Source of the DNA: Streptomyces sp. ISL-100
GTDB lineage: Bacteria > Actinomycetota > Actinomycetes > Streptomycetales > Streptomycetaceae
Assembly (NCBI RefSeq): GCF_018614615.1
Contig: NZ_JAGGOK010000012.1
Location: 62,001 to 126,000 of the forward strand
Direction: 5' to 3'
Length of the DNA stretch: 64,000 bases
The notes below the pieces were generated by a model that saw nothing but the letters and a program-made list of their open reading frames with translations, was not told the origin of the DNA and searched no databases. The stretch's first letter is position 1, and every line of letters begins with the position of its first letter. Of this stretch, positions 25,150 through 45,989 are shown one piece after another. The position numbers and the translations under genes were made by a program.

Positions 25150-26127
25150 GACCTCGGCGCCACGCAGCGTCTTGGCGCGGATCGAGTCCATCCCCAGGTG
25201 CAGTTCCGTCTCACCGCTCCGGTAGGCGTGTTCGATGGGGAGGTAGTAGGCGAGGCTGAAGTACTCCTGGGCGCCGCGCAGCCGCGGGTAGTCGAAGCCG
25301 AGTGCGCGTACCCACACCGTGCCGCCGAAGCGGTAGAACAAGCTGAAGCCGACCATCGTGCCCCCCAGGAAGCAGCCGAGCACCGTCCCGGAGTCGCCCA
25401 TTCCGTCCGCCTGTTGGCGAAGAAGGCCGGCCATGGCCGCAGGTTCCGAGCCGTGGCCGTGCCGGTCCTGGAGTCCGGCCAGCAGTTCGCCCGCCCGGTC
25501 GGCGCACTCCGACAGCCTGAGCTCCCGGACCTCGTAACCCGCCTCCTGAAACGCGCGCCGCTCTCGCCGGATGACTACGCGGCGCTTCGAAGGCAGGGTG
25601 CCCAGGTAGTCGTCGAAGGACGAACCCGGCAGCGGGATGGCGGCATCCTGCTGGAGGTGTACGGGGTCCGTGCCGCAGACGTCCGCCAGTTCCTTGGCGG
25701 CGGAGTCCTTCACGTACAGCCACCAGGGTTGTGCCTCGTGGCGCGCTCCGAGCGTACGCGCGGCTTCCAGCAGGAGTTCCAGGCAGCGCCGCCGCTCACC
25801 CGCGGCGAGCGAGGGGTGCAGCAGTGGTGCGTTGAGGTATCCGCGCCGGGCGCCCGCCACCACAACCCGCCGCTCGGGTGCGGCGCCGGGGACGAGTTCG
25901 GCCACGCGGTAGAGGGCGTTGGGCTCGCAGTGGACGACGTACAGAGGTGTCGCCGCGACCAGGCGGCCCGCGTCGTCGTGAACGAGCGCGTAACGGGGCT
26001 GCGCGGTCGGGTCGCTCTCCTGCGCGGTGAGCCAACGGTGGCTGAGGTAGAGCCCCACCGAGCCGGCGAGGGCGTCCCACTCTTCGCGCGGCACAGCGGC
26101 AAGGCTGGGGGAAAAGGACAGTCTCAC
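25120..26127 (-). CDS. FemAB/GNAT-fold transferase of the peptidoglycan-recognition type (PF04339-like)
   Basis: 335 residues from a GTG overlapping the MFS stop as GTGA. EEWDALAGSVGLYLSHRWL, then VAATPLYVVHCEPNALYRV, form the N-terminal half. SSFDDYLGTLPSKRRVVIRR with ERRAFQEAGYEVRELR, then LGCFLGGTMVGFSLFYRFG, VWVRALGFDYPRL, YLPIEHAYRSG and ELHLGMDS form the acyltransferase half. The layout fits FemAB-like/GNAT proteins that move acyl or aminoacyl groups onto amines. As the last gene of a four-gene operon with two ATP-grasp ligases and an exporter, it probably adds or tailors a building block of the product. Donor (acyl-CoA or aminoacyl-tRNA) cannot be told from sequence. Confidence 0.8.
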   Translation of the reverse strand: MRLSFSPSLAAVPREEWDALAGSVGLYLSHRWLTAQESDPTAQPRYALVHDDAGRLVAATPLYVVHCEPNALYRVAELVPGAAPERRVVVAGARRGYLNAPLLHPSLAAGERRRCLELLLEAARTLGARHEAQPWWLYVKDSAAKELADVCGTDPVHLQQDAAIPLPGSSFDDYLGTLPSKRRVVIRRERRAFQEAGYEVRELRLSECADRAGELLAGLQDRHGHGSEPAAMAGLLRQQADGMGDSGTVLGCFLGGTMVGFSLFYRFGGTVWVRALGFDYPRLRGAQEYFSLAYYLPIEHAYRSGETELHLGMDSIRAKTLRGAEVSPLWAIANG

Positions 26128-27398: not shown

Positions 27399-28696
27399 CG
27401 GGCCGGCGGGGCTGTTGGGACTTCCAAGGCCGCCGACCCTGCCGGCGCGAGCAGATTGCGGATCTTCTCCAGCATCTCCGGAGCGATGAAGCCGGTAGCG
27501 GCGGCGAGTTCCCCCAGTTCCTTCGTCACGCGGGCCTCGTCACCACGCGGGCATGTGAAGGTCATGATGCCGCCGTGGTTCTCGCCGTCGATGATCAGGT
27601 CGTGCGCGGTCACCAGGTCGACCCGGGACCGAAGCTGCGACACGAGCTCCGGCGTGGGGTTGCTGATCAGGCACTCCAGCGCCCAGCGACCGGGGCGCTC
27701 ACCCACTGCGTCCGGCCGTGGCCACTCACCCAGAAGCATGTGCACCAGCGACTCGAACGTGTTGTGCCCCGAGGCCGCGACGGACAGTGTCGTTGCCCCG
27801 CCGATCCGTGGGTTGACCTCCAGCACGTGATAGACGCCGTCGCTGTAGATCATGTCGACGTTGACGGAGCCCTGCACACCCAGCGCCGCGCACATACTCT
27901 TCAGGCGCTCCGCCACCGGCCGGAAGTCGGCGTCGGGCCTTTCGCGCGGCCCGCAGTACCGCAGGTCGGCGAAGGTGAAGGCCGGCGGGCCGCCGGCCGT
28001 ACCCGTCCAGCACAGAGGCTGTACGCGGTACTCGCCCTCCGCGCCGACGATGTCCACCGTGCACAGCTCCCCGACAACGCACCGTTCGAGCAGCACGTTG
28101 CCGCTCGGCGCGTCGAGGAGGTGGTCGTCAAGAGCATCGGGGCTGCCGATGAAGCGGATGCCCATGCTGGTGCTGTCCCACAGCGGCTTCGACACGAGCG
28201 GATAGCCGACGTCCCGGGCGGCAAGGCGGATGCTGTCCGCGTACGCCGGGACCGGCAGGCCACGGCCGTTGAGCAGGTCCCCGTCGACCAGGACGCCTGG
28301 CGGGGTGGTCAGTCCGTGCTCCGTGAGGAGGCGCTTGGTCTCCCACTTGTCACACAGCACCCGCGTGGCAGCCGGTGGCGTCATCACCGTCGGAATGCCG
28401 TACGCCGCCAGCTTGTCCTTGATCACGGAGTCCCGGAGCGCGTTCTCGTCCGGCAGGGAGATGGAGATCGCGCCGTCGGCGCCCCAGCGGCGTAACCGCT
28501 CGACGATCTCGTCCGGCGTCGCCGAAGCGTCCACCTTCTCCGCGCTCCCCGGGAATTCCCCGGGGGCGCAGGTGCCGTGCGTGTAGAACAGTCTCGCCTC
28601 CGCGCCGTGGGCGCGCAGCACGCCGGCGATGCCGTGGATGTAGGGGTCGGCCCGCTGGATGTCCACGGACCGCAGAAAGGCGATGCGTCGCCGCAT
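27395..28696 (-). CDS. ATP-grasp ligase A
   Basis: 433 residues. An N-terminal pre-ATP-grasp domain (IAFLRSVDIQRADPYIHG) precedes the nucleotide-binding core, with DKWETKRLLTEHGLTTPPGV and YPLVSKPLWDSTSMGIRFI. The closing Mg-binding motif VYHVLEVNPRIGGATTLSV has the conserved Glu, Asn and Arg. ERCVVGELCTVDIVG is the typical lid strand. Family members form amide, peptide or thioester bonds through an acyl-phosphate. The C-terminal 110 residues (PTPELVSQLRSRVDLVTAHD, ENHGGIMTFTCPRGDEARV) are a further domain also seen in carbamoyl-phosphate-synthetase-like ligases. It starts 5 bp after ligase B. Confidence 0.9.
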   Translation of the reverse strand: MRRRIAFLRSVDIQRADPYIHGIAGVLRAHGAEARLFYTHGTCAPGEFPGSAEKVDASATPDEIVERLRRWGADGAISISLPDENALRDSVIKDKLAAYGIPTVMTPPAATRVLCDKWETKRLLTEHGLTTPPGVLVDGDLLNGRGLPVPAYADSIRLAARDVGYPLVSKPLWDSTSMGIRFIGSPDALDDHLLDAPSGNVLLERCVVGELCTVDIVGAEGEYRVQPLCWTGTAGGPPAFTFADLRYCGPRERPDADFRPVAERLKSMCAALGVQGSVNVDMIYSDGVYHVLEVNPRIGGATTLSVAASGHNTFESLVHMLLGEWPRPDAVGERPGRWALECLISNPTPELVSQLRSRVDLVTAHDLIIDGENHGGIMTFTCPRGDEARVTKELGELAAATGFIAPEMLEKIRNLLAPAGSAALEVPTAPPAR

Positions 28697-28701
28697 TGGT
28701 A

Positions 28702-29979
28702 TCAGCTCACTTCGGCTTCGACTTCGGGTTCTTCTTCGACTTCGACTTCAACTTCGACAGATGTGCCGGCGAGGGCGGTCGCGGCGGCGGCGTTCGCCTG
28801 TGCCGGAGTCTCGGCGGTGACGAGGAGATGTCCGACGCGGGCGGAGTTGTCGCGGGCGTCGCGCACGGGCGTACCCGGCTCCACGGAGATGTGGCGCTCC
28901 ACGCCTTCCTCCTGCGGGCCCCGGACCCGCACGCCCCGGAAGATTCCGGCGCGGGGAGGCGTCAGAAAGCGAATCGCGCACGCACGCTCACGGGTGGCCG
29001 TGGTGTCGGGGCGCTCGCCGAGCACGGCCTGGAGGTACGCGCGTGCCTCGTCGACGCCGCAGGCGTGGCGTACGACGTCGACGAGATTGTCGCCGGGCAG
29101 CCGGGCGCCGACCTCCAGCACCACCGGGTCGGATTCATGGGACGCGATCTTGACTTCGGTGTGCGCCACACCGTCGCGTATGCCCAGGGCGGTCAACGCC
29201 CGCTCGGTCACGGCATGGACACGTGGCAGCAGGTCACGGTGGAGGGGCGCCGGCGCGGTGTGCCCCAGTTCGGCGCGGAAGGACCCGCCCGTGGTGTGCT
29301 TCTCCACCACCGGCATGTGGAAGAAGCTGCCCTTCGAGGCGATGGTGTCGATGCTGTACTCGGCGCCGCTCACGTACTCCTGTACGACGACCCGCTGGTC
29401 GAGCTTCACCTGGTGCGGCTCGGCCGCCGGCCAGGCCTGGGCCTCCCGTACCGCCTCCGCCAGCCCGGCCGCCGAGCCGACCACCGAAACGCCCCAGGAG
29501 CCGCCCTGCTCCGCGGGCTTGACCACCAGTGGGTATCCCATGCCAGCCAACGCGATCCTGTCGACCGCCTCCGCCCACGTACGGGCGATCACCGTCGCCG
29601 GGGCGGGCACGCCGCCCGCGCGGAACGCCTCGGCCATGGCGGCCTTGTTCCGGCCGGCGGCCGCCAGCTCCGGTACGTTCCCGGGGAGCCCCAACCGCGC
29701 GGCCAACTGCGCGACCAGGGGAGTGAAGAACTCCCAGCACCCCGCCACACCGTTGATGCCCTCCGCGCGACAGAACGCCTCCATGTCCTTGAGCGCGCGC
29801 TGCGAGTCGGCGAGGTCGGTGAACACGGCGCCGCGCAATCCGCGCCGCAGCGCCTGCGGGTAAGTGCCGTAGACGTCCTCGTGCGTTGCGACGAACGCCT
29901 CGATCCCCAGACCGTTCGCGGCTTCGACCAAATACGAGCCGGAGTTGGCCAATGCCTCTATGAGCAGGACCTTTTTCAC
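28702..29979 (-). CDS. ATP-grasp ligase B, L-amino-acid-ligase-like
   Basis: 425 residues from a GTG at 29979 that opens KKVLLIEALANSGSYLVEAA. The core shows NKAAMAEAFRAGGVPAPATV, YPLVVKPAEQGGSWGVSVVG, VVVQEYVSGAEYSIDTIAS and the metal site VVLEVGARLPGDNLVDVV (Glu, Arg, Asn). This pattern resembles BacD/carnosine-synthase-type ligases joining two amino acids. Ligases A and B are different in sequence, so two successive condensations are likely. The C-terminus ends in an acidic (VE)n tail encoded by a hexanucleotide repeat. It is the first gene of the leftward operon; GGGGGCGG precedes the start. Confidence 0.9.
   Translation of the reverse strand: MKKVLLIEALANSGSYLVEAANGLGIEAFVATHEDVYGTYPQALRRGLRGAVFTDLADSQRALKDMEAFCRAEGINGVAGCWEFFTPLVAQLAARLGLPGNVPELAAAGRNKAAMAEAFRAGGVPAPATVIARTWAEAVDRIALAGMGYPLVVKPAEQGGSWGVSVVGSAAGLAEAVREAQAWPAAEPHQVKLDQRVVVQEYVSGAEYSIDTIASKGSFFHMPVVEKHTTGGSFRAELGHTAPAPLHRDLLPRVHAVTERALTALGIRDGVAHTEVKIASHESDPVVLEVGARLPGDNLVDVVRHACGVDEARAYLQAVLGERPDTTATRERACAIRFLTPPRAGIFRGVRVRGPQEEGVERHISVEPGTPVRDARDNSARVGHLLVTAETPAQANAAAATALAGTSVEVEVEVEEEPEVEAEVS
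28709..28757. repeat. (CTTCGA)n-type hexanucleotide repeat
   Basis: Imperfect repeat in the 3' end of ligase B encoding its acidic EVEVEVEEEPEVEAEV tail. Six-base units keep the frame. Confidence 0.85.
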
Positions 29980-30286
29980 GTGCTGCCGCCCCCGTTCAGT
30001 TAGTGGCGAACAGTAGACAGCACGCTCGTCGGTGAGGCCATCAGCGCGAAGTCCAAAGCGCGGCCCGATCAGCCCAGTTGTTTTGTAGCTACGCCCAAGT
30101 GGGGGGGGAGGCGGCGGAACATAGTGGATAGGGCCGCCCGGTGTTCGCGGTTTGCCGCAATTTCGGAGGTCCGCACAGGGTTGCGCGCCGACAAGAGTGG
30201 AGAATTGGTGGTTCCCGACCCTCTGGTACTCGCCGGTACGCGGATTCACTGACGTGGTCCACTCAGGCACCGACGAGGGGAACTAC
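29980..30286. promoter_or_regulatory. Divergent promoter region of the ligase and radical SAM operons
   Basis: A 307-bp gap between the GTG of ligase B and the GTG of the radical SAM gene. It contains a run of nine G (about 30101-30109), an AT-richer stretch around 30075-30085 (GTTTTGTAGCTAC), a small palindrome GTGGTCCAC at 30254-30262, and GAGGGG as ribosome-binding site of the rightward gene. No regulator gene is adjacent. Confidence 0.45.
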
Positions 30287-31732
30287 GTGAACGACATCAC
30301 CAATGTGCTCAGCAGCTACATCGAGCAGGGTGTCATTCCGCCATTCAACTATTCCTATCCGTCACGTTCGACCTACCGCCCTCTGGACAGTTCGTGGAAC
30401 GTCGACGACATCTGGGCGAGGGATCTCGAGAACCACCAGACACCGGAACTCAACCTCTATCTGCACGTCCCCTTCTGTCGCTACAAATGCGGGTTCTGCA
30501 ACCTCTACACCGTCATATCCGAGGACCAGGACGTCTACGACGCCTACATGGACGCCCTGTGCACGCAGTTACGCGACCACACAGAGGTCATCCAGGCCCG
30601 CAGGCTGCGGACCATCTACATCGGCGGCGGCACTCCGAGCCTGCTCTCACTGCGCCACTTCGAGCAGCTCTTCTCCACCATCACCGAGATTTACCCGAAC
30701 TGGCGGAGCACCGTCGAGGATGTGGCGATCGAGGCCACCCCCGACTCCATCGTCAATGAGCCCGACACCCTCGAAGGGCTCATTCGCATGGGCCTGACCC
30801 GCGCGAACGTCGGTATTCAGTCGCTCGTACCCCAGGAGATCCGCGAAGCCGGCCGCGGCCAGGCGAACGAGCAGGTCATCCGGCGCGCCATCGAGATCAC
30901 CCGGGAGAAGAATCTCCCGGACCTGAGTACCGACCTCATCATGGGCTTCGCCGGGCAGACCGACAAAAGCTGGTGCCAGTCCGTCGACGAACTCGCGGCA
31001 CTGAGCCCGGAAACGATCAGTACGTACTTCCTGACGGTCCGGCCGGACGCCTGGTTCTCCAAGACCGGCGCCTACCAGTACATGTGGAATCCCGACCTCT
31101 ACAAGCGGTACGACTACGCGAACCAGGTATTCCGCGAGGCCGGTTACGTCCAGGAGTCCAACGTCCGCTACAAGAAACTCGGGCGGGGCGGATACGCGCA
31201 GAAGGTCCTCACCTTCCACGGGGTACCGCTGCTCGGCCTGGGCGTCGGCGCCCGCAGCTACTCCAGCGTGCTGGACTACATGGTGGGCAGCGTCAAGCCG
31301 AGCATGGCCGAGATCGGCAACTACATCGACAAGGCGCGCAGTCACCGGCTGACCCCGCAGACCGGCTTCGTCCTCACCCCCGAGGAGAACATCCGCAAGC
31401 GGCTGGTCCTGGACCTGTTCGACCTCAATCTGCGCGAGCTCGACCGATTCGGGTACCGGGAGAAGGCCCACCTCTTCGAGCCCGTCATCTCCGCGAGCGA
31501 GGAGACGGGGCTGCTGCGGCGCCTGCCCGGCGGACGCGTCCAGCTCACGCCGGACGGCTTCAAGTACCGGGACATTCTGTCGTGGATGTTCTTCTCCGAC
31601 GACGTCGTCGACCTCGACCGTGAGTACTACGAGAACCTGCACCAGCAGAACAAGCGAGCCCAGAAGGTCATGGGCGAGCCGCTGCGCATCTCCGGCATCA
31701 CGAGCCGCGCCACGGCTGACAAGCCGGCCTGA
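30287..31732 (+). CDS. HemN/HemW-like radical SAM enzyme
   Basis: 481 residues from a GTG with GAGGGG upstream. The cluster-binding motif is YLHVPFCRYKCGFCNLYT (C-x3-C-x2-C, with Tyr and His as in HemN). It is followed by RTIYIGGGTPSLLS (the GGE-equivalent), VAIEATPDSI, MGLTRANVGIQSL and DLSTDLIMGFAGQT, the standard barrel strands. A HemN-type C-terminal winged region follows (LGLGVGARSYSS, TPEENIRKRLVLDLFDLNL). It lacks a B12 domain. True HemN makes haem precursors, but related class C enzymes in biosynthetic clusters methylate, cyclopropanate or otherwise alter unactivated carbons. Next to two ligase genes, a tailoring role is the better reading. Confidence 0.92.
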   Translation: MNDITNVLSSYIEQGVIPPFNYSYPSRSTYRPLDSSWNVDDIWARDLENHQTPELNLYLHVPFCRYKCGFCNLYTVISEDQDVYDAYMDALCTQLRDHTEVIQARRLRTIYIGGGTPSLLSLRHFEQLFSTITEIYPNWRSTVEDVAIEATPDSIVNEPDTLEGLIRMGLTRANVGIQSLVPQEIREAGRGQANEQVIRRAIEITREKNLPDLSTDLIMGFAGQTDKSWCQSVDELAALSPETISTYFLTVRPDAWFSKTGAYQYMWNPDLYKRYDYANQVFREAGYVQESNVRYKKLGRGGYAQKVLTFHGVPLLGLGVGARSYSSVLDYMVGSVKPSMAEIGNYIDKARSHRLTPQTGFVLTPEENIRKRLVLDLFDLNLRELDRFGYREKAHLFEPVISASEETGLLRRLPGGRVQLTPDGFKYRDILSWMFFSDDVVDLDREYYENLHQQNKRAQKVMGEPLRISGITSRATADKPA

Positions 31733-31771
31733 GCCGGCCTGAGTTCGTTTGAGTCCTTCACTTCCGTGCGT

Positions 31772-31799
31772 CGCGCCCCGGCCTGCGGGCCGGGGCGCG
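31772..31799. terminator. Strong hairpin between the radical SAM and DUF1152 genes
   Basis: CGCGCCCCGGCC-TGCG-GGCCGGGGCGCG is a perfect 12-bp stem with a 4-base loop, 39 bp after the radical SAM stop and 35 bp before the DUF1152 start. No U-tract follows. It could terminate or attenuate transcription, lowering downstream expression. Confidence 0.7.
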
Positions 31800-31833
31800 T
31801 CGCTGACCCGTCACGAAAGGAAACACCACCCCG

Positions 31834-32976
31834 GTGACCCGACTGCTCATAGCCGCCGGAGGGGGAGGCGACCCCATCGGCACCGCACTCGTCCACAAGG
31901 CCATAGCGCCGCACGAGGACGCTGTCGTCCTCACCTACGCCTGGGAGCGGCTGACCGTCGATCCCACGCCCGGCCCCCTGGGGCCCGTCCACTTCACGGG
32001 ACTGCGCGGACTCACCCCGCACGTGTACGTCGTCGAGCCGGACTCGGCGCCCGTCCCGCCCGCCGGATCGACCCTGCCGCGGCTCGCCGGGCAGCTTCCC
32101 GTACGGCTGTGGCTGCTCGACCCGTACGCGGGCATCCCCGGCCTGGCCCTGCAGATTGCCGAGGCGGCCGATTTCTGCGGCGCCGACGAGGTCCGGGTCG
32201 TGGACGTGGGCGGTGACATCGTTGCCCGGGGTGACGAGCCCACCCTCGCCAGTCCGCTCCCGGACGCCATGGCCGTCGCCGCATGCCGCGCCGCCGGAGT
32301 GCCGGCCACCGTGTACCTGGCCGGCCCCGGCCTCGACGGCGAAGTGCCCGAGGAGCAGCTGCTGCCGCGCCTGGGCGACGACTGCTTCACCCTCGGCCCG
32401 GGGGACACCGTATGGGCCGAGGGTCTCTTCGACTGGCATCCCTCCGAGGCCGGCGCCCTGCTGGCGGCGGCGGCCCGGGGACTGCGGGGCGCCTGCGTGA
32501 CCAGGGATACCGGGGCATCGGTTCCGCTGACCGGGGCGAGTGCTCGCGTGTACCGGATCGCCCTGGACCGGGTCCTGGAGCTCAGCCCCCTCGCCCGCGC
32601 GCTGTACGACGCCTCGCCTGACACCCTCGACGCTGCCGAAAAGGTCAGCATTGCCACGTACGGCTTCTCCGAGGTCGAGCGCGAGCGTGAGCGGGCCCGG
32701 CTCAGCAAGCGGGAGATCCCGGTCACGGAACGGATCGAAGACGCCCTGCCCCACCTCGACACCTGGCTCGCCGAGGTCCGGGCCCGGAACCACCCACCCG
32801 GCCTGGAGTACGTCACCTTCCGCTGCGCCACCGAGGCGCTGGGCTTCCACTGGTCGCAGAGCTCGCGACTGCGGGCGGTCGTCGCCGAGCACCGTCCGGA
32901 GCTGTACGACTTCCCGCTGCTTGCCGCCCGCCAATCCCCTTCTGTACCAGAGGTCTTGACAACTCAATTGGTCTGA
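31834..32976 (+). CDS. DUF1152 protein
   Basis: 380 residues from a GTG preceded by GAAAGGAAA. The N-terminus LLIAAGGGGDPIGTALVHKA is a Rossmann-like glycine-rich loop. Characteristic family stretches follow in order: YAWERLTVDPTPGP, PPAGSTLPRLAGQLPVRLWL, LLDPYAGIPGLALQIAEAA, VVDVGGDIVARGDEPTLASP, PDAMAVAACRAAGVPATVYL and LAGPGLDGEVP. The reaction of DUF1152 proteins is not established to my knowledge. They occur near biosynthetic genes and look like nucleotide- or sugar-binding enzymes. It follows the radical SAM gene, separated by a strong hairpin; its stop codon lies within a DasR-like site of the chitinase promoter. Confidence 0.9.
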   Translation: MTRLLIAAGGGGDPIGTALVHKAIAPHEDAVVLTYAWERLTVDPTPGPLGPVHFTGLRGLTPHVYVVEPDSAPVPPAGSTLPRLAGQLPVRLWLLDPYAGIPGLALQIAEAADFCGADEVRVVDVGGDIVARGDEPTLASPLPDAMAVAACRAAGVPATVYLAGPGLDGEVPEEQLLPRLGDDCFTLGPGDTVWAEGLFDWHPSEAGALLAAAARGLRGACVTRDTGASVPLTGASARVYRIALDRVLELSPLARALYDASPDTLDAAEKVSIATYGFSEVERERERARLSKREIPVTERIEDALPHLDTWLAEVRARNHPPGLEYVTFRCATEALGFHWSQSSRLRAVVAEHRPELYDFPLLAARQSPSVPEVLTTQLV

Positions 32977-34792: not shown

Positions 34793-34882
34793 CGTAGACC
34801 ATCGCGCAGAGCGGCCTTGGTGACGCTTCGCCCTCGCGCGACGATTCCCTTCGGGCCCGGATGGGCCCCCACCGTCGTTTGC

Positions 34883-35125
34883 GTGATCGCGCACGTCGGC
34901 GAAGGCGCTCCCGTCACGCTCCGCGTGAGCGGAACCCACGACCGCTCCCGCCTCCGCGTCGAAGTCACCGACCCCGATCCGCGTGCGCTACCCGTGCACC
35001 TGCGGGCCGCCGAGGACGCAGAGTCCGGGCGTGGGATGGCGCTGCTGGCGGCGCTCACCCTGCGCTGGGGCATTCAGCAGGGGGCCGACAGCAAGACCGT
35101 CTGGTGTGAGCTGCGCGCCCAGTAG
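34883..35125 (+). pseudogene. Truncated RsbW-like ATPase gene, copy of 24748-25149
   Basis: The 81-codon stretch VIAHVGEGAPVTLRVSGTHD to DSKTVWCELRAQ is closely similar to the C-terminal 60% of the protein at 24748, including TDPDPRALPVH and ESGRGMALLAA. The N-terminal 50 residues and the essential N-box (SELLTN) are absent. A GTG at 34817 could start an open frame, but the 22 residues it adds are unrelated. No XRE or DUF397 partner is adjacent. A pseudogene left by partial duplication or decay is the simplest reading. Confidence 0.75.
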
Positions 35126-35190
35126 CAGACAGGTCGCGCCGGCCGGGACGACAGGCAGTCAGAGCAAGCATGCAGCCCAGGGCGTGGTCT

Positions 35191-35231
35191 GCCCTGCCCC
35201 TGCCCCTGCCCCTGCCCCTGCCCCTGCCCCG
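35191..35231. repeat. (CCCTGC)n hexanucleotide repeat
   Basis: Six to seven near-perfect CCCTGC units just downstream of a small membrane-protein gene read from the other strand. Confidence 0.9.
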
Positions 35232-35237
35232 CGAGGA

Positions 35238-35447
35238 TCAAGCGGGCTCCGGCGACTCGGGGCCGATACGGATCAAGGCGCTGGCCCATCCCATGCCCAC
35301 CCCGACGACGATGATGCCCGCCACCCACAGAGCGTGGTGCCAGAGCGGGCCGGGCCGCACTGTCTCAACGTCGTCGGGGCCGACGGGGTCGGAAGGGTCG
35401 ACAGGGTCGAGGAGTTCCATCACGCCCAGAAAGACGCGCTCTGGCAT
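35238..35447 (-). CDS. Small single-span membrane protein
   Basis: 69 residues from the ATG in MPERVFLG (an earlier in-frame ATG at 35471 and a later one at 35420 are alternatives). The N-terminal half is acidic and Asp/Pro-rich (LDPVDPSDPVGPDDVE), followed by one membrane helix (ALWVAGIIVVGVGMGWASAL) and a short tail. No family recognised. It is bounded by a hexanucleotide repeat on the 3' side and lies convergent to the pseudogene at 34883. Coding status rests on third-position G/C bias and the clean helix. Confidence 0.55.
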   Translation of the reverse strand: MPERVFLGVMELLDPVDPSDPVGPDDVETVRPGPLWHHALWVAGIIVVGVGMGWASALIRIGPESPEPA

Positions 35448-35579
35448 CCGCACGTTCCCTCGAAGGGGCAATCACGTGATCGCGTCAGCCCCTCGTCTGT
35501 CCTGCCACGTCGGCTACTCACTCCGGTCTGAGTAGCCCTCCTCACGCGGCGTGCCGCGGCGCCACCTAGCCTCTTGGTC

Positions 35580-35894
35580 ATGAGTTCCGCTGCGCAGACG
35601 ACCAGAATGTTCCGGCACACCCCGTGGGTGGAGGGGCTGTCCACGAAGGCGTTGGCTGTGGGTGCCGTCTCGCTTGTCGTTCCCCTGCTGGGCATCGCCG
35701 CCGTTGGATACGGTGTGTACACCCTGCGGCAGGTACGGCGTGCGGAGCGGTTCAGCGGCCCTGGCGACTGTGCTCCGTCGCGTGCCAGGACGCGGGCCGT
35801 GGCCGGTATCGCGCTCGGTACGGTGACGCTCGTGGCGCAGCTGGCGTTCGCCATGTGGTTGCGTTGGGCACTCGTGACGATGGGGCCGTTTTAG
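35580..35894 (+). CDS. Two-span membrane protein, DUF4190-like
   Basis: 104 residues with two hydrophobic segments: LAVGAVSLVVPLLGIAAVGY and VAGIALGTVTLVAQLAFAMW, separated by a basic loop (TLRQVRRAERF) and a short stretch SRARTRAVAG. That pattern (helix, basic loop, R-A-x-A-G-I-A-L-G, helix) is the DUF4190 layout, common and uncharacterised in actinomycetes. The gene stands alone between two minus-strand transcription units. No specific partner is suggested. Confidence 0.7.
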   Translation: MSSAAQTTRMFRHTPWVEGLSTKALAVGAVSLVVPLLGIAAVGYGVYTLRQVRRAERFSGPGDCAPSRARTRAVAGIALGTVTLVAQLAFAMWLRWALVTMGPF

Positions 35895-36028
35895 TACTGC
35901 AACGGCCATCCAGTAACGACATCGACGATGACGCATCGGCAGGTACCGTCTTCCACACACATCACGGTGCGTCGAAAACCATGACCTGAGATGCCCGCGC
36001 CTAACTCGCCGCAGGGCACCGGCACGGG

Positions 36029-37324
36029 TCAACTGCGTCGGTGCCGCTTGCGGGCTACGGCAAAGGCGCCGCCCGCGAGGATCGCCGCTGCCGCTCCGAT
36101 GATCAGGCCCAACTGACCTACGCCCTCGGCCTTCTCGCCGGACCCTGCCACGACGGCATTGCCTCCGGGCTTTGCCTTCGGGGCTTGGGACGCGGCCGAC
36201 GCGGAGGGGGTGGGCGGGCTCGAAGGGCTGGGCATCACCTCGTCGGGGAGTAGCTTGGCGTCCGGGGCACCTGGGTTGCCCTTGCCGTCGAGGACGTTCA
36301 TCCCCGGGCGGATCCCACCATGGCCCGAGTAATAGCTATGGGTGCCTTCCACCCAGCCTTCCCGGTCGGCCGTGTCGAAGAGGACACGGAGGACCTGGTT
36401 CGCAGTCCATTCCGGGTGGACGGACCAGACCAGAGCGGCAGAGGCGGAAGCGAGTGCGGTGGCGGCCACAGCTCCACCGCCATCGTCGCAATAGCTCTGG
36501 AACTCAGCGTCGCACCAGCGCGGGATGTCCTCGCCGGGAGCCGAAATATCCACATACTTCCCGTGTTGGGATTGCCGGGTCGCCCGGCCCCCACGATCGC
36601 TCGAAGCAACACCGACGACTTCCGGGAACCGGGCCGGGTACTGCGCCTTGTTCCCCTTCTCAGCGGTGTCGCCCACACCCGCAATCAGCAGCTTGCCCTT
36701 GTGCACCGCGTATTCCAATGCTGAGTGCTGCCCGAACGTGTCCAAGCCAATGGTGTGTTCGTTCCCGACTGAAATATTGATGATCTGGGCGTCACTGTCC
36801 GCCGCCGCCCGGATTGCACGGGCCATGGGATCGTTGATTCGCGGCACGTCATCGTGCTTGAGGAGCGGTATCCGTACAGGGATGATCTTTACGCCTGGTG
36901 CCAGACCTCGCAGGCCACCGCCTTTCCCCGTACCGGCGATCAACTCGGCAGTGGTGGTCCCTTGCCCATGGTAATCGTTCGTCGATCCACCCGCTGCTTC
37001 CTCAGTGGCATTCACGCCCTTCAGGACCTGCCCCTTCAGCGAAGGCGTGGACGGATTGACGCCGGAATCGATAACGGCGACCTTGATGCCTTCGCCAATG
37101 GTGACCTTCCACATCTCCTCGGCGCGCATCGCGTCCAGATACCACTGGTTCGACTGCGCGTCCGCGGCGACGGCGGTTGGGGCCATACCGCCGACGACCA
37201 TCGCCCAAGCGCCGGCCACAGCCATCGCGCAGAACATGCCTCGCGGCAAGCCGTGCGGCGCACGGCCTTTCCTGACCTGGCTCATTCCTGCCGTACCGAC
37301 GCAATCCATTGCTGTAGGACTCAT
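36029..37324 (-). CDS. Mycosin-like subtilase (S8) with the catalytic serine replaced by valine
   Basis: 431 residues: signal peptide to AVAADAQ (about residue 55), subtilase domain, a Ser/Pro/Ala linker and a C-terminal membrane helix (LGLIIGAAAAILAGGAFAVA) with basic tail, exactly the mycosin layout. Asp86 (VAVIDSGVN) and His119 (NDYHGQGTTTAEL) of the triad are present. At the GTSxA position the sequence is GGGAVAATALASASAALVW: codon 286 is GTG (Val) where Ser is required. Neighbouring residues still align (ATALASASAALVW), so this is a substitution and not a misread region. The protein should be proteolytically inactive but could still bind substrates. It ends a five-gene envelope operon. 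Confidence 0.9.
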   Translation of the reverse strand: MSPTAMDCVGTAGMSQVRKGRAPHGLPRGMFCAMAVAGAWAMVVGGMAPTAVAADAQSNQWYLDAMRAEEMWKVTIGEGIKVAVIDSGVNPSTPSLKGQVLKGVNATEEAAGGSTNDYHGQGTTTAELIAGTGKGGGLRGLAPGVKIIPVRIPLLKHDDVPRINDPMARAIRAAADSDAQIINISVGNEHTIGLDTFGQHSALEYAVHKGKLLIAGVGDTAEKGNKAQYPARFPEVVGVASSDRGGRATRQSQHGKYVDISAPGEDIPRWCDAEFQSYCDDGGGAVAATALASASAALVWSVHPEWTANQVLRVLFDTADREGWVEGTHSYYSGHGGIRPGMNVLDGKGNPGAPDAKLLPDEVMPSPSSPPTPSASAASQAPKAKPGGNAVVAGSGEKAEGVGQLGLIIGAAAAILAGGAFAVARKRHRRS

Positions 37325-37327
37325 CAG

Positions 37328-37762
37328 TTATCGCCCCAGGCCCTTCGTAGCAGGCGCGTCGTCGTTACCCGACTGCTTGGGTTCGCCGCTCTTCGCACGC
37401 TCCTGCTGCGCCGCGTGCTCCTGGTCGATACGGTCCCGGATCACCGCGTACCGTCGCCGCACGTCCTCCTCCACGTTGTCGAAGCCGACCTCCGCAGCGT
37501 GCACGCCGATACTCAACGCCTCAATCTGGGCGCCAAGGTTCTTGGAAAGTGAAACAAGCTCCTGGTGAACACGGTCGTACTGGCCGAAGAGCGACTCGGC
37601 CTCGTCGAATTTCGCGTTCAGGCCGCTGAAGGAGGCCCGAGCAACCCGCTGCTCACCCACCTTGGTGCTACTGCCGGCCCCGCCCTCGAAATCTGCCAGC
37701 AACGCGCTCACCCGCGTCTGGAATCGCTTCAGCGCACCGACGCCACGCTCAAGGTCGCTCAC
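37328..37762 (-). CDS. Coiled-coil protein of the mycosin-like operon
   Basis: 144 residues from a GTG at 37762. Almost entirely helical heptad-rich sequence: ERGVGALKRFQTRVSALLAD, FDEAESLFGQYDRVHQELVS, LGAQIEALSIGVHAAEVGFD, EEDVRRRYAVIRDRIDQEHA, with a charged tail. No signal peptide or WxG motif. The helical, acidic nature and its place 3 bp before a mycosin-like gene recall type VII secretion (ESX) substrates or chaperones, but no ESX core gene (EccC, EccD) is in the window. Function unknown. Confidence 0.75.
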   Translation of the reverse strand: MSDLERGVGALKRFQTRVSALLADFEGGAGSSTKVGEQRVARASFSGLNAKFDEAESLFGQYDRVHQELVSLSKNLGAQIEALSIGVHAAEVGFDNVEEDVRRRYAVIRDRIDQEHAAQQERAKSGEPKQSGNDDAPATKGLGR

Positions 37763-37823
37763 GACCGCTCCCCTCGCCGTTGAACCGCCCGGCCAACGCC
37801 TACATAGCGCACGATACCCGTCA

Positions 37824-38405
37824 TCAGCCGGCACTCGGGGAGCGCGGCGGAGCTGGGGTCTCGGCGGACCAGAAATCGGAGCGCACATTGGGGCGAGGGA
37901 TTGGAACGCCCGCATAGTCGGGACCGTTCGGCTTGGCTGTGGGAGCGGCGACCTTGGACTTCTTCACGCACGGGGTGTTGACCTCGAAGTACGCCTGTCC
38001 CTTGTCGCCAATCGTCAGGTCGATCCCGAACCCGTCAGGTGTCTCGGCGAAGATGTCGGGATAGTCCGCGTCACTATTCACAGCAGTGATCACGTAGCCG
38101 CTCTTCTTCCAGAACCGCTCAATCACACCGAGGAAACTCCCACGCCGCTGCTCGGAAATGACCGTCATTACGGTCCGGCGGCGCGTCAGGTCGCAGCTGC
38201 CGGCCGTTGTGTCGTCGTGGGCCCACTGGACTTCCGGCACGATGGCATCAAGTGTCGCATCCAGCATGGAATCTGCACGCTCCGCCGCTTCTTGCATATC
38301 CATCGCCGTCGAGGCTCCTCTGTCCGTATCATTCAGAACTCCACATCCAGCGAGCAACGCACCAGCCAGAACAAGGGGCAGTGCCCTCTCCATCTTCCGC
38401 TTCAC
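37824..38405 (-). CDS. Lipoprotein of the mycosin-like operon
   Basis: 193 residues. MKRKMERALPLVLAGALLAGC gives a short signal with lipobox LLAGC. The mature part has AERADSMLDATLDAIVPEVQ, a cysteine pair (AGSCDLTRRR and NTPCVKK) and DGFGIDLTIGDKGQAYFEVN, suggesting a small alpha/beta fold on the outer membrane face. The ATG overlaps the stop of the hydrolase gene as ATGA. Homologues of this type accompany DUF1023 hydrolases in Streptomyces; the function is not known to me. Confidence 0.82.
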   Translation of the reverse strand: MKRKMERALPLVLAGALLAGCGVLNDTDRGASTAMDMQEAAERADSMLDATLDAIVPEVQWAHDDTTAGSCDLTRRRTVMTVISEQRRGSFLGVIERFWKKSGYVITAVNSDADYPDIFAETPDGFGIDLTIGDKGQAYFEVNTPCVKKSKVAAPTAKPNGPDYAGVPIPRPNVRSDFWSAETPAPPRSPSAG

Positions 38406-40195
38406 CGCCGCTCCGCCGTAAGAATTGATTCCGGCGCACCTGCAACGATCTTGGCAATGTTCCTTGCGGACACCGCATCCCTCTCTGGGCTGAAATAATT
38501 GGAGTGAGCGTCAAATCCGCCCAATTCAAGGATGGGGCGGGGTCCGTCGTCCACCTCGAAACGTCGGGCGCCAAAGGCCACGCTGGCTGGGTCCTTGCCA
38601 AAGTAGAGGTCATCGTCACCCTGGTCAGCGATATCGCCGGCGATATAACCGCCCAGTGGCCACGCAGCCACCAACCCAACGCCACTTTGTTGTCCTGAGG
38701 GGAGCTTGGTCACCGGATCGTTGTCGGCCGCTCCGACGAAGACGTGGTCCTTGCCGACGCCGAGGTCCTCTGCCCTGTCAACGCCAGTGCCGGGACTACC
38801 GAGCAGGATGATGTCGTCAGCTCCCGGAATGCCGCCGTCCTGCTGGGCAGCCGTACCGACCGCGAGCGATCCGTAAGAGTGGCCGATCGCTGTCAGGTGC
38901 GGGTCCTTGTGCTCGTTGGTGGCGCCCAGTCCGGCCATGAACTGGTTGTAGGCCGGGGCACCTTCCTCGGCGTTGCTCGTGCTTACGACCGTCGCGAAAT
39001 TCGGAGCGTCGTAGCCGAGCCAGACAATCGCCGCACTGGACTCGTCGTACTTTTGTGCACCCTTCGCGGTGTCCAGACCCCGCTTCAAGGTGTCATCGAC
39101 GAATTCCCCGTCCAGCTTGGTCCCCAGCCCCGGCACATACGCCGATACGTTCCGCGAGGTGTCCGGATTGCCGTACGCCACAATGGCGCGACCATTGCCC
39201 TCGTCCCCGATGCCCAGCAAGTACATCGGCACCTTGGAGGGCTCGTTCAGCTTCGCTTCGATGCCACGCAGTGCGGCCAGCTTGGTCTGGGCGTCGTCGC
39301 CGCCCTGGCTCTCCAGTTTGTCGATGAGCACCGGCAGGTGGTTCCGGTTCGCTTCGTCCCGTACCGCGGACGGAATTCCGTCGAGGCCGCCGACGAGGTC
39401 CGGGACAACCGTCACGTATTCCTGCCGCTGTTCGTCGGTCAGGCCGTCCCACCACTTCTTGCGCTCGGCGGGGGACTTGTCCTCCGGGATGCCGTCGCCC
39501 AGGTACCGGCCCGCGACTGTGCGTACCGCATCCGTGTCGCGGAAGACGTCTTCCAACGTCGCCCTGGTGACATCGAGTCCGCCGGCTGCCTTGAGCTTGC
39601 TCAGCGCCTGCGCGTACCGGCCGTCGATGTCGGCGGCGGACCGCACCGCCCGCGCGATCCGGTCCGCGATGGCCTGTGCCTTGGCCGCGTTCGGGTTGGG
39701 GTTGAAGCCGCCGCCGGGAAGACCGGGTTTCTCGGTCAGCGGTGGTGCCTCCAGGGGGAGCCGTGCGCTTCCCGGGGCCGTGCCGCCCGGCTCCTCCTTC
39801 TTCCCCAGCAGGGTCTCGCCGGCCGCGGCCGGGTAGCTGACCGAGCCATCCTCGTGAACGGTGAACTTCAGGTTCCGCGCGTCTTCCAGGGCTTGCCTCA
39901 GCTGCTGCTGAGGGCCCGCCAGTTCGGAGGCGAGGCCGTTCAGGGCCGTACGGATCAGTCCGGCCTCGGTGTGGACGTACTGGAAATTGCGGCTCAGCCG
40001 CTCCAGCCTTTTGAGGGCTGCCTCGGCAGCATCGCTCTTCTGGGTCTCGCGCAGCTTCGCCGTCATGGCCCTGTCGACCTTGCCACGGTCGGCATCGGCC
40101 CTGCCGGAGACCTCGTGCCAGCCGTCACCGGCGTCTTCGAACTCCGACCGTTTCAAGTCGCGCAGCCGCTGCCACGTCAGCGTCATTCCGGTCAC
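38402..40195 (-). CDS. DUF1023-type alpha/beta hydrolase with N-terminal coiled-coil region
   Basis: 597 residues; GTG start overlapping the upstream stop as GTGA. Residues 1-150 are helical (TWQRLRDLKRSEFEDAGDGW, AALKRLERLSRNFQYVHTEA), like the WXG100-type leaders of secreted actinobacterial proteins. The hydrolase domain has the nucleophile elbow AIGHSYGSLAVG (Ser440), an oxyanion-side stretch VSAYVPGLGTKLDG and VWLGYDAPN, and ends with FDAHSNYFSPERD, where a catalytic His is expected. Substrate is unknown; DUF1023 (PF06259) proteins are predicted lipases/esterases. No Sec signal is visible, so export would have to use the helical leader, as in type VII systems. Confidence 0.88.
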   Translation of the reverse strand: MTGMTLTWQRLRDLKRSEFEDAGDGWHEVSGRADADRGKVDRAMTAKLRETQKSDAAEAALKRLERLSRNFQYVHTEAGLIRTALNGLASELAGPQQQLRQALEDARNLKFTVHEDGSVSYPAAAGETLLGKKEEPGGTAPGSARLPLEAPPLTEKPGLPGGGFNPNPNAAKAQAIADRIARAVRSAADIDGRYAQALSKLKAAGGLDVTRATLEDVFRDTDAVRTVAGRYLGDGIPEDKSPAERKKWWDGLTDEQRQEYVTVVPDLVGGLDGIPSAVRDEANRNHLPVLIDKLESQGGDDAQTKLAALRGIEAKLNEPSKVPMYLLGIGDEGNGRAIVAYGNPDTSRNVSAYVPGLGTKLDGEFVDDTLKRGLDTAKGAQKYDESSAAIVWLGYDAPNFATVVSTSNAEEGAPAYNQFMAGLGATNEHKDPHLTAIGHSYGSLAVGTAAQQDGGIPGADDIILLGSPGTGVDRAEDLGVGKDHVFVGAADNDPVTKLPSGQQSGVGLVAAWPLGGYIAGDIADQGDDDLYFGKDPASVAFGARRFEVDDGPRPILELGGFDAHSNYFSPERDAVSARNIAKIVAGAPESILTAERR

Positions 40196-40614
40196 GGGCG
40201 CTCACCCGCAATGGCCGTCTTCACGGCATTCAAGGAACTCTTCACCGCAGTCTCGGACTCGCCCATCTCCTTGGCGACCTTCAGCAGCGCACCCTCCAGG
40301 TAGTCGCACTCACCCCGCACCGCAGTCAGTCGCTTCTCCCACGACTCCATTACCGCGTTCAGTATCGCCACGGACGAGAGCCCCGCCGCGCCGGACGCGA
40401 CACCCTCGTGCGCGGGGCGAAGGCGGCTGCGGCTCGTCTGTGTGCTGGTTCGGAGCCCGCCCGCAGCACCGGATGCGCTGGTCCACGGCCCACCGCTGTG
40501 CTTCAGCTTCCCCTCACCGCCCGTACCGCCCGGTGCAGCCGAGGCCAGCGACATGCGCGCCTCCGCCCGTCCGGCCGCCTCGGCCTTGAGCTGCTCCCAC
40601 TCGTCCCATGGCAT
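40192..40614 (-). CDS. Small helical protein, first gene of the mycosin-like operon
   Basis: 140 residues. The N-terminus MPWDEWEQLKAEAAGRAEAR is helical with an early Trp; a Gly/Ser-rich middle follows; the C-terminal 60 residues (VAILNAVMESWEKRLTAVRG, YLEGALLKVAKEMGESETAV) form a helical hairpin resembling a WXG100/ESX-like fold without a canonical WxG turn. The stop overlaps the next start as GTGA. I read it as partner of the downstream DUF1023 hydrolase, perhaps its co-secretion factor. Confidence 0.75.
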   Translation of the reverse strand: MPWDEWEQLKAEAAGRAEARMSLASAAPGGTGGEGKLKHSGGPWTSASGAAGGLRTSTQTSRSRLRPAHEGVASGAAGLSSVAILNAVMESWEKRLTAVRGECDYLEGALLKVAKEMGESETAVKSSLNAVKTAIAGERP

Positions 40615-40745
40615 GGGCTGCGCCCCCCGTGTATCTCCCCAACGCGGATGCGCCGCGTCACCCGAGCGACGCTAGCGCACCGCCGCGCCTCGTACGCAAC
40701 TGCGAAGAGGATCAGCCTCGGGATGAGCTTCCCGGCCGTAGCAGC

Positions 40746-40770
40746 CCAATCGCCGGGCACACAAGGGCGA
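40746..40770. terminator. Hairpin downstream of the Nramp-like gene
   Basis: AATCGCC-N11-GGCGATT, a perfect 7-bp stem about 50 bp after the Nramp-like stop. The rest of the 204-bp gap (40615-40818) shows no other feature; it must also hold the promoter of the mycosin-like operon. Confidence 0.45.
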
Positions 40771-40818
40771 TTAGCCTCACCTCTCCTCTCGATGAATGAG
40801 TACGTGCATCAACGGCCT

Positions 40819-42126
40819 CTACCAGGGCAGCTCCCGCAGCTGCTGCACGCACAGCACGATGAACAGCAGGCCCGCCGCCACCAGCATCACGTTGCTCAGC
40901 ATGCCGTTGCGCCATTCCGCCGGCGTACGGGAGGAGTTGAGCAGCCACACCAGCGTCAGCGCCAGGAACGGCATGAAGAACGCGCCGAGTACGCCGTACA
41001 CCACGACCAGGCCGAACGGCTGGTCCAGCCACAGCAGCGCCATCGGCGGGAACGTCAGCCACAGCAGGTACGCCCGGAAGGGCAGCGAGCGCTCCTTCAC
41101 TCCGGCCGCGACCTCCTCCACCGTGCCGACGTCGACCGGCGCGCCCTTGCGGTCGCGCTGGAGGCGCTCGACGAAGTCGGCGAACATCAGGCTCACGCCG
41201 TGCCACACCCCGATGAGGGACGAGAAGGACGTCGCGAAGAAGCCGACGAGGAAGAGCTTGGCGGTGACAGCGCCGTACCGGTCCTCCAGGATCTTGCCGA
41301 GGTCGATCAGGCCGCGGTCGCCCTTGGTGAGGGCGAGCTGGGAGGAGTGCAGCAGCTCGGCGCCGACGATCAGCATCGCGACGACGAAGATGCCGGTGGT
41401 GATGTACGCGACCCGGTTGTCGAGGCGCATCACCTTCATCCAGCCGGAGTTGGTCCAGCCCTTGGCGTTCACCCAGTAGCCGTACGCCGCCATGGTGATC
41501 GTGCCGCCGACGCCGCCGATCAGGCCGAGGGTGTAGAGGAGCGAGCCGTCGGGGAGGACCGGGACCAGGCCGGCGAAGGAGGCGCCGACGTCCGGGCCGA
41601 CGCGGGCCGCGACGTACACGACGACCACGAACATCACGCCGACCAGCACCGTCATGACTTTCTCGAAGACGGCGTACTGGTTGAACCAGACGAAGGCCAG
41701 ACCGATCAGGCCCGTGACGATCGCCCAGGTCTTGAGGCCCGGCCCGTCGGGGAAGAGCGCGACGATGGGCAGGGCGGAGGACGACATGGCCGTCGCGCCG
41801 TAGATGAAGCCCCAGATGACGACGTAGATCGCGAAGTAGACGGTGGTCCACTGGCCGAGGCTGCGCCAGCCCTCGAACAGGGTGCGGCCGGTGGCGAGGT
41901 GCCAACGGCCGGCGGCTTCGGCGAGGGAGATCTTGACGACGCAGCCGATGACGGCGGCCCACATGAGCGTGTAGCCGAACTTGCTGCCCGCGATCAGCGT
42001 CGCGACGAGGTCACCGGCTCCGACACCGGTCGCGGCGACGACGATGCCGGGGCCGATGTACTTCCAACTGGACTTGCGCGGCTGGGAGATGGCCTCTCCC
42101 GTGCCGCTCTCTGTCGTGCCTGTCAT
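40819..42126 (-). CDS. Nramp-family transporter with altered metal-site motifs
   Basis: 435 residues and about eleven hydrophobic segments. TM1 aligns with Nramp ([19 protein letters not shown]), but the metal-binding DPGN is GAGD here. In TM6 the MPH motif is replaced: [12 protein letters not shown], with Met kept and Pro-His changed to Ala-Ala. Remaining Nramp landmarks include the long amphipathic TM4-5 region ([20 protein letters not shown]) and [13 protein letters not shown]-like loop between TM7 and TM8. It is probably a divalent cation carrier of a divergent branch, with Mg or another ion as candidate in place of Mn/Fe. Expressed alone, divergent from the carboxypeptidase gene. Confidence 0.85.
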
Positions 42127-44639: not shown

Positions 44640-44760
44640 TGTGCCCCATGCGCCAGAAGGGCCTCGAAGTACGCGTTTTGGAGCTCTCTCCCGCCGGTGA
44701 GCGGGAGACTCTCCCCTGGATCGCTCCGGGGAGTTCGACAGCACTCAGGTCTGCCTGACG
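44640..44760 (-). ncRNA. Candidate omega (reRNA) guide scaffold of the TnpB element
   Basis: The minus strand from the TnpB 3' end to the element edge folds into two hairpins: CTCCCC-N11-GGGGAG and TCTCCCG-N8-CGGGAGA. TnpB guide RNAs are established to come from this place and to take their guide from the DNA just outside the right end, here permease remnant sequence. Assignment rests on position and hairpins. Confidence 0.5.
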
Positions 44761-45989
44761 ACTGCCCTCCCGGCAGCCGAGGCGAGTGCGAAACCCGCCC
44801 GGTCGATGTTCCGGCCTGCGTTGTGGTCGGCATTGCCAGACCAGCCGCACCGCGAGTTCTTGCACACGAACTCCGCCTGCGACTCCCGATTACCAGGGGT
44901 GGCAATTTCGCACATGGAGCAACGCAGGGAGGTACCCGGCGCTGGCACATGAACCAGGAGCCCACCGCGATCGAGGACCTTGTAGGCCAGCAACTGGACG
45001 GTGCGCCCCCATGCCTCCCCTGCGATCTTGCGGTTAAGCCCGGATTTCTGAGCCACGTTGACGCCCGGCTCGGCAATGTTCCCCTTCGCGGACTTGAGCA
45101 TGTTCGTGATGTCGAGCTGTTCCACTGACACCAGCGCGTAGGCGTCAGCGATGGCAGTGGTTGTCTTGTGCTGCCAGTCCAGTACCCGCCGCTTGGCTCT
45201 CGCGCGCAGGTCCTTGATCTGGTCGTACAGGGCGCACAGCCTCTTTGAGGTCCGCTCGCCTGCCTTGCGGTACCGCTTACGGTGTGCGGCCCGCTGCTCA
45301 GCCCGAAGCAGCCGGGCTTCTTCCTCATCATCCAGCCACGAGGCGTGGTCGTGGGTACTCCCGTCGGACAGCGCGAGCGGCACAGTGATCCCTCGGTCAA
45401 TGCCGACGTGTGAATCGGTCCAGTCCCGTGGCTCTGCTGCCTGCACCAAGTGCTCGATGCGGAAGGCGATGTGCCAGCCGAGCGCGTCCTTGACCAAACG
45501 CGCCCCGGTGATCCGCCCCGCAGGGCTCCCCTTGGTCAACCCCGGCAGATCTTTCGTCCACCGGAACCGCACCCGCCCCACCTTCGGGATGCTCACCATC
45601 CCCCACCGGCGATGCACCCGCGCCACTTGCAGATCGCGCCCCTGTGGGATGTCCACTGCGAGCGGTGCCCGGGCGCGGGACTTGTAGATGGGTTGGTCGG
45701 CCCTGCCCTCCCAGCAGTTCACCCATGCTCTGTGATACGTCTTCAGCACAGCTTGGGCGGCTTGCGCCGGAAGCATGCCGAGCCAGTCGACATTAGCGCG
45801 TGCCCATCGGATCTCACCGTCCATGTACGCCAGGGGTGGCCGCCGGGATCTGCATGCCGTGAACAGCTCATGCAACAGGTTCCACAACGCCCGTGCCGCA
45901 TGAGCCTGTTGGTCAAGTTGCGCTGCTTGGTCACACGTCAAGGCAAGCCGAGCACGGTACCCACGCCGTTGCCTCATCGTCTCGCCCAT
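44745..45989 (-). CDS. tnpB: TnpB RNA-guided endonuclease (IS605 OrfB family)
   Basis: 414 residues with a GGAGG ribosome-binding site. An N-terminal OrfB HTH/wedge region (TCDQAAQLDQQAHAARALWN) precedes the split RuvC nuclease: Asp198 in SHVGIDRGITVPLALSDG, Glu290 in YALVSVEQLDITNM, Asp388 in GNADHNAGRNI. The zinc ribbon has CSMC (357, 360) and C-x4-C (376, 381), so all catalytic and metal residues are present. TnpB, ancestor of Cas12, cuts DNA under guidance of an RNA from the element end and helps retain the element. The gene appears intact and possibly active. Confidence 0.95.
   Translation of the reverse strand: MGETMRQRRGYRARLALTCDQAAQLDQQAHAARALWNLLHELFTACRSRRPPLAYMDGEIRWARANVDWLGMLPAQAAQAVLKTYHRAWVNCWEGRADQPIYKSRARAPLAVDIPQGRDLQVARVHRRWGMVSIPKVGRVRFRWTKDLPGLTKGSPAGRITGARLVKDALGWHIAFRIEHLVQAAEPRDWTDSHVGIDRGITVPLALSDGSTHDHASWLDDEEEARLLRAEQRAAHRKRYRKAGERTSKRLCALYDQIKDLRARAKRRVLDWQHKTTTAIADAYALVSVEQLDITNMLKSAKGNIAEPGVNVAQKSGLNRKIAGEAWGRTVQLLAYKVLDRGGLLVHVPAPGTSLRCSMCEIATPGNRESQAEFVCKNSRCGWSGNADHNAGRNIDRAGFALASAAGRAVVRQT

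Follow-up and report, generated by a model that had tools for sequence, protein, structure and literature searches.

The locus studied here raises the question of whether a mycosin gene that has lost the codon for its catalytic serine still encodes a protein that is kept for something other than proteolysis. The gene lies in a 64,000-nucleotide stretch of Streptomyces sp. ISL-100 DNA (contig NZ_JAGGOK010000012.1, positions 62,001 to 126,000), which we call the window. A first-pass annotation had described the product as a mycosin-like protein with an intact frame, a retained Asp86 and His119, and valine in place of the nucleophile, and had proposed that it is a membrane-anchored pseudoprotease with a structural or substrate-binding role.

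The frame is indeed open: the minus strand from 37324 to 36029 is an uninterrupted ORF of 431 codons, with an ATG at 37324 and a stop ending at 36029. The protein matches Pfam Peptidase_S8 (E 3.7e-33), and its best NCBIfam model is the T7SS mycosin TIGR03921, aligned over profile positions 1-350 of 353 at 235.3 bits against a cut-off of 278.75. Both of the intact mycP2 proteins tested also score under this cut-off (271.2 and 216.9), whereas the mycP1 protein tested passes it (324.4). In intact Streptomyces core loci (L080-L090) the gene order is eccB-mycP1-wxgA-PPE-like-mycP2-wxgB, wxgA and wxgB being labels of this analysis. The mycosin domain layout of signal peptide, subtilase domain and C-terminal membrane helix is present in the window protein, with hydropathy as the sole basis for its two hydrophobic ends, and this arrangement matches the published layout of an N-terminal hydrophobic stretch and a tail anchor (PMC10924467, in excerpt). 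Two conserved cysteines are also retained. The features are as follows.

36029..37324, minus strand: pseudo-mycosin of the mycP2 type, 431 amino acids (ORF, Pfam, NCBIfam, fold like MycP1/MycP3)
37181..37237, minus strand: N-terminal hydrophobic stretch, signal-peptide-like, residues 30-48 (hydropathy)
36056..36112, minus strand: C-terminal hydrophobic stretch, transmembrane-like, residues 405-423 (hydropathy; modelled helix 409-429)

The fold was modelled with AlphaFold using 11 aligned sequences as input (mean pLDDT 66.3, pTM 0.67); this model replaced a single-sequence fold, which was dropped (pLDDT 39.9). Across residues ~50-350 it resembles subtilisins as well as MycP1 and MycP3 (VIA-align Z 33-35), the scores for MycP1 and MycP3 (33.3-33.5) being similar to those for other subtilisins.

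Alignment to relatives and reading of the codons locate the active site.

37067..37069, minus strand: codon 86, GAT, catalytic Asp retained
36962..36964, minus strand: codon 121, CAA, Gln at the catalytic His site
36668..36670, minus strand: codon 219, GAC, Asp at the oxyanion Asn site
36467..36469, minus strand: codon 286, GTG, Val at the catalytic Ser site

The reading of position 286 was right: the window protein has Gly-Ala-Val where aligned relatives have Gly-Thr-Ser. Asp86 likewise aligns with the catalytic aspartate. His119, in contrast, had been mistaken for the catalytic histidine. The histidine of the GHGT motif aligns to position 121, which is Gln in the window copy, and a phmmer alignment to a solved subtilisin gives the same placing; column 119 is variable among relatives (Arg, Asp, Asn, Ser and others). 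The replacement of the oxyanion Asn219 by Asp had been overlooked. Three of the four catalytic and oxyanion residues are therefore gone, which by the genetic code requires at least four base changes, and because only Asp86 remains of the Asp-His-Ser and oxyanion Asn set we class the protein as a pseudo-mycosin, presumably inactive, and not as an active mycosin protease. In the 11-sequence model Asp86 stands at the end of a strand, and positions 121 and 285 are each the first residue of a helix. The serines closest in sequence to the site are 277, 293, 295 and 301; since the last three lie within helix 285-302, the search by structure prediction for a displaced nucleophile, which the first-pass annotation had named as a possible objection, revealed no apparent candidate.

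To place the window copy among its relatives, we assembled a census. The first search covered 392 Streptomyces genomes and gave matches at E<=1e-45 in 261 of them; the best match of the window protein beyond itself had 61% identity, so there was no close orthologue among these genomes. Further, overlapping draws used the protein of genome G191 as query (372 genomes) or surveyed the family (380 genomes). Four candidates were scored per genome in each of the three draws, with many weaker hits falling outside the census, whose rows are mainly best hits to the window and G191 proteins after removal of near-identical ones. Altogether, 236 rows were aligned with the window protein, and the 206 at >=200 bits form the census. 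The complete Asp-His-Asn-Ser set is present in 199 of these 206 distinct relatives and broken in seven, a proportion of sampled rows and not a natural frequency. The thirty rows under 200 bits, kept apart, comprise 28 intact and two truncated sequences. The seven dead copies come from seven different Streptomyces genomes and carry the following residues at positions 86, 121, 219 and 286.

Window: D, Q, D, V
G284: D, Q, D, H
G608: G, A, D, A
G659: G, Q, D, V
G191: G, Q, D, V
G014: G, E, D, M
G715: G, E, D, S
G017: D, N, D, R

Not one of the 206 census rows has lost the serine alone, and Asp at 219 is found in all eight dead copies, the window's included, against 0 of 199 intact rows. In the family draw, which spanned 17 genera, no genus beyond Streptomyces gave a match at E<=1e-95. 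Among named plasmids, 11 records match the window protein (best 45%) and 42 match the G191 protein, none of the latter covering 80%.

Six of the seven other dead copies share with the window copy a signature, the motif [KR]HD at residues 156-158, which occurs in 0 of 199 intact rows.

36851..36859, minus strand: Lys-His-Asp loop, residues 156-158, signature of the pseudo-mycosin family (alignment)

We propose the group name "Streptomyces [KR]HD pseudo-mycosins" for proteins that have lost His121 and Asn219 and carry [KR]HD at 156-158; all seven copies that define the group, including that of the window, have these features. Pro153 is present in 7/7 members and in at most 13/199 intact rows, while Pro166, Gly178, Val186, Asn188 and Val211 are each found in 6/7 members and in no more than 13/199 intact rows, the window copy being without Gly178 and Val211. 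The first four members had four rare residues in common outside the active site, and none was shared in any of 300 control quartets of intact relatives of like divergence. Position 286, by comparison, is not fixed as Val, a point on which the first-pass annotation had asked for an alignment of orthologues: across the seven [KR]HD copies it is Val, Val, Val, His, Met, Ala and Ser. The 156-158 loop and residues 186-188 were placed by alignment to a solved subtilisin and presumably correspond to the lining of its S4-S1 subsites; in the 11-sequence model the loop region (residues 156-163) has a pLDDT under 50. The eighth dead copy, that of G017, has none of the loop residues and clusters with its intact neighbours, and therefore looks like a separate loss of the catalytic set. 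It is a D-N-D-R mycosin (L212 5101-6399) located downstream of an intact mycP2, and its oxyanion Asn, too, is replaced by Asp.

Beyond the active site, the dead copies have changed little at the positions that intact mycosins hold constant. Among intact relatives, fifty columns reach a constancy of at least 98%; six belong to the active site (86, 121, 219, 284-286) and 44 lie outside it. The window copy breaks five of the 50, namely 121, 219, 285 and 286 plus 358, the only one of the 44. The other dead copies each break between 4 and 7, with 0 to 3 of these among the 44, somewhat more than the average intact row; an intact row breaks a mean of 0.18 of the 50 and never more than 3. As the dead copies were picked by their broken site columns, the excess of breaks within the active site is partly circular, and the hypergeometric p values calculated for it (9e-3 to 2e-5) were set aside for this reason. 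The telling point is the scarcity of broken constant columns outside the active site, not their concentration within it. The pN/pS values of the window copy against the three family copies then known (0.53, 0.63 and 0.48) resemble those of similarly diverged intact pairs (median 0.55), but are weak evidence, because pS is near saturation.

The genes of this family are mosaic. In G715 a dead and an intact copy lie 1.2 kb apart, and from residue 301 to the end they share 99-100% protein and 95-99% DNA identity, whereas over residues 151-225 their protein identity is 32%; in that core the dead copy is 80% identical to the dead copy of G659. The tail of the G659 dead copy (residues 346-428), in turn, is 79% identical to that of its own intact neighbour and 53% to that of the G715 dead copy. 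The simplest reading is that gene conversion has acted on the C-terminal part and spared the core. The Ser286 of G715 sits in a stretch 85% identical to the intact neighbour and was probably acquired in the same manner. As an arrangement, the tandem pair of G715 (L305, L306) resembles conversion around a core kept apart.

Mosaicism is also the likely reason why full-length trees split the family while a tree of the core unites it. At full length, the window, G284, G608 and G014 copies form one group (97/91) and those of G715, G659 and G191 another (100/100), the latter adjoining the intact copy of G715; a single clade of all seven was rejected (AU p 0.04). An early quick tree of four dead copies had supported one clade at 98, and a careful tree without active-site columns left the matter unresolved (AU p 0.207). 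For the core tree, residues 116-230 were used with the columns around 121 and 219 left out, and it united the seven copies with an SH-aLRT of 93. These 103 columns suggest a single origin of the family core.

The genomic contexts of the dead copies differ. In G191, the dead copy occupies the place of mycP2 between the PPE-like gene and wxgB, surrounded by eccB, mycP1 and an eccC-like gene, the last recognised by a length and start like those of the L080 FtsK/SpoIIIE gene. At E<=1e-45, with the four best candidates scored per genome, G191 has no match besides this copy, its sole mycP2 match in that search; the dead copies of G014 and the window genome are likewise the single matches in theirs. 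In G659 an intact mycP2 is followed directly by the dead copy and then by wxgB; in G017 the order is intact mycP2, wxgB, another small gene and the dead copy. The copies of G608, G014 and G284 lie away from T7SS genes within the stretches read, and G608 and G284 have an intact mycP2 elsewhere. The G284 copy is located on a 27-kb contig, about 7 kb from a gene (L209 3677-8446) for a 1589-residue RHS protein with a WXG100-like N-terminus and an endonuclease C-terminus.

The window copy is not part of a T7SS locus with EccB and EccC: no eccB, PPE-like gene or wxgB adjoins it. It lies on an insertion, where four genes precede it on the same strand.

34797..40820, no strand assigned: insertion of ~6.0 kb between a GH18 chitinase gene and an Nramp-type gene (empty site in relatives)
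37328..37762, minus strand: wxgA homologue, a small protein like that encoded behind mycP1 in core T7SS loci (homology; no Pfam match, probable GTG start at 37762)
37824..38405, minus strand: lipoprotein-like gene of a small-abh-lipo trio (lipobox-like start, homologues)
38402..40195, minus strand: alpha/beta hydrolase with Abhydrolase_8 at residues 333-499 and the rest unmatched (Pfam, homologues)
40192..40614, minus strand: small gene of the trio, without a Pfam match (homologues)

The hydrolase, possibly a secreted effector, has matches at E<=1e-100 in 84 of the 392 genomes, and neither wxgA nor a mycosin was seen beside its best homologues in the 20 stretches read (0/20). In the core loci L089, L081 and L044, however, similar hydrolase genes are found a few kb or less from mycP2, which makes an old link between the module and the T7SS likely. 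Four of the eight relatives read (G118, G113, G173 and G128) lack the insertion and have a clean empty site, in which the chitinase and Nramp-type genes are joined with ~16-46 bases between them. At the same site G353 has a second chitinase copy and G057 has ~1.4 kb of other DNA; in G148 and G019 the chitinase was not found beside the Nramp gene. As read from the sequence, the insertion starts immediately behind the terminator-like hairpin of the chitinase gene. The 300-base stretches at its two edges share no 9-mers that would indicate terminal repeats, and no tRNA genes were found within the window. Elsewhere in the window, ~11 kb at 21553-32931 with radical SAM, DUF1152, ATP-grasp and MFS genes are variable, the positions 21552 and 32932 being just ~2.1 kb apart in G118 (L141), and a TnpB-like gene (OrfB_IS605, Cas12f1-like TNB domains) lies at 44745-45989, ~4 kb from the insertion. 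The genome, a draft of 154 contigs, has a T7SS core of its own, which lies on a different contig (C122) and encodes EccB, EccE, two WXG100 proteins and four mycosins, all four with their catalytic motifs kept. This EccB, the only one matched in the genome, is of another type (46% identity to the canonical EccB), which speaks against the reading favoured below.

On this evidence we think it probable that the window gene is a maintained pseudoprotease, that is, a structural and/or peptide-binding mycosin. It might instead be a decaying leftover, an orphan that has drifted since the insertion carried in a piece of a T7SS locus without the machinery. Its position away from any core would fit such an origin, as would the absence of the insertion from relatives, the location of the G284, G608 and G014 copies away from T7SS genes in the stretches read, and a GC3 of 0.75, the chitinase and Nramp genes on either side having 0.93 and 0.96. 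However, intact mycP2 genes of core loci also have a low GC3 (0.69-0.82), few constant positions are broken outside the active site, the core is common to dead copies in other genomes, and the dead copy of G191 sits at the mycP2 position within a core locus. We consider decay unlikely, if a serious alternative. Repeated independent losses, in which mycP2 catalysis is dispensable and unrelated copies converge on similar residues, appear improbable to us. The G017 copy, separate by tree and by signature, has nevertheless acquired Asn219Asp, the full-length tree rejects one clade, and active-site mutants of mycobacterial mycosins still secrete (PMC5082899, in excerpt). Against this stand [KR]HD in seven copies and 0/199 intact rows, further core residues common to 6-7 of the seven, the core tree (support 93), and the exchange in G715, which would scramble a full-length tree.

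Changed chemistry is a very remote prospect. Asp219 resembles the oxyanion Asp of sedolisins, and the replacements of Asn by Asp and His by Glu recall these Ser-Glu-Asp enzymes, so that some members might be acid peptidases; G715 has Glu121, Asp219 and Ser286, and G014 has Glu121 and Asp219. The Ser-Glu-Asp triad of sedolisins is mentioned in PMC9549277 (in excerpt). The window copy, however, combines Gln121 with Val286, other members have Ala or Gln at 121 and Val, His, Met or Ala at 286, and the Ser286 of G715 was probably converted from the intact neighbour. A sequencing or assembly error, for which the draft state of the genome could be cited, has next to no probability given three residues at separate codons, an open frame and matching features in six other genomes. 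The first-pass annotation had held that serine in nearly all orthologues would indicate a recent mutation or an error. The full catalytic set is indeed kept by 199 of 206 relatives, which agrees in part with that objection; but with several residues lost and non-catalytic residues shared with dead copies in six other genomes, a single recent mutation or a misread base is very unlikely. The observation of a dead mycosin holds with the His119 correction, and the reading as a pseudoprotease with a mycosin-like anchor is supported more strongly than it was put and extends to a family.

In the maintained pseudoprotease, a mycP2-type mycosin has lost its catalytic His, oxyanion Asn and Ser and retained the fold, the two cysteines and the hydrophobic ends, and its core carries residues peculiar to the dead-mycosin family. 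From this we infer a mechanism. The protein is most likely seated in the membrane and faces outwards, where it may join or dock on the cap that EccB and mycosins form in the type VII machine. There it would bind a peptide or partner but not cleave it, with the active mycosins of that cell alongside. The window copy might serve the neighbouring hydrolase/lipoprotein module. A more specific version is tentative: in some Streptomyces T7SS the mycosin cap could be mixed, an active mycosin having a dedicated dead partner. The remodelled core of that partner would hold, guide or shield a substrate tail; gene conversion would keep its C-terminal part matched to the active mycosin, and its core would stay apart.

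A structural or substrate-binding role is plausible and fits published work on mycobacteria. There, active-site mutants of MycP1 and MycP5 still secrete, MycP stabilises the secretion complex, and loss of the protein destabilises it (PMC5082899, in excerpt); a MycP5 trimer caps the EccB5 chamber with its active sites facing inwards (PMC8131196, in excerpt). A dead mycosin with an altered core would be suited to act in the cap, as a subunit or adaptor, and to hold its substrate or partner uncut. Why mycosins, and not their proteolysis, are essential for secretion is a question posed in the mycobacterial work (PMC5082899, in excerpt), and natural mycosins that lack the full catalytic set, including the one at the mycP2 position in the G191 core locus, offer a direct way of asking what mycosins do apart from proteolysis. 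A 2012 survey reported that a mycosin-like protease occurs near one toxin family and suggested that inactive peptidase domains may serve toxin systems as modules that bind peptides (PMC3482391, in excerpt). Our literature search, from which subscription journals were mostly absent, returned no paper combining "mycosin" and "pseudoprotease", and the titles and abstract openings among the matches listed did not name the dead-mycosin family.

Among the closest known proteins are the mycP2 products of Streptomyces core loci (e.g. L041, L080-L090), which lie on the same branch with ~49-61% identity over most of the length but have intact D-H-N-S and are encoded behind the PPE-like gene and before wxgB. 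MycP1, MycP3 and MycP5 of the mycobacterial ESX systems share the subtilase fold, both hydrophobic ends and T7SS-type neighbours, but keep the catalytic features of which the window copy has lost His, oxyanion Asn and Ser. The laboratory active-site mutants of MycP1 and MycP5 are also mycosins without catalysis, yet they were engineered (PMC5082899, in excerpt), whereas the window copy lost several residues naturally and has a different core. The nearest known parallel is the pair CspC and CspA of Clostridioides difficile, for which we know of no link to the T7SS. These are dead subtilases found beside an active paralogue, CspB, and CspC, like the window copy, retains only the Asp of the triad; unlike the window protein, they are soluble, have a jelly roll domain and act in spore germination (PMC6636752, in excerpt). 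The [KR]HD pseudo-mycosins add a bacterial pseudoprotease family comparable to CspA and CspC.
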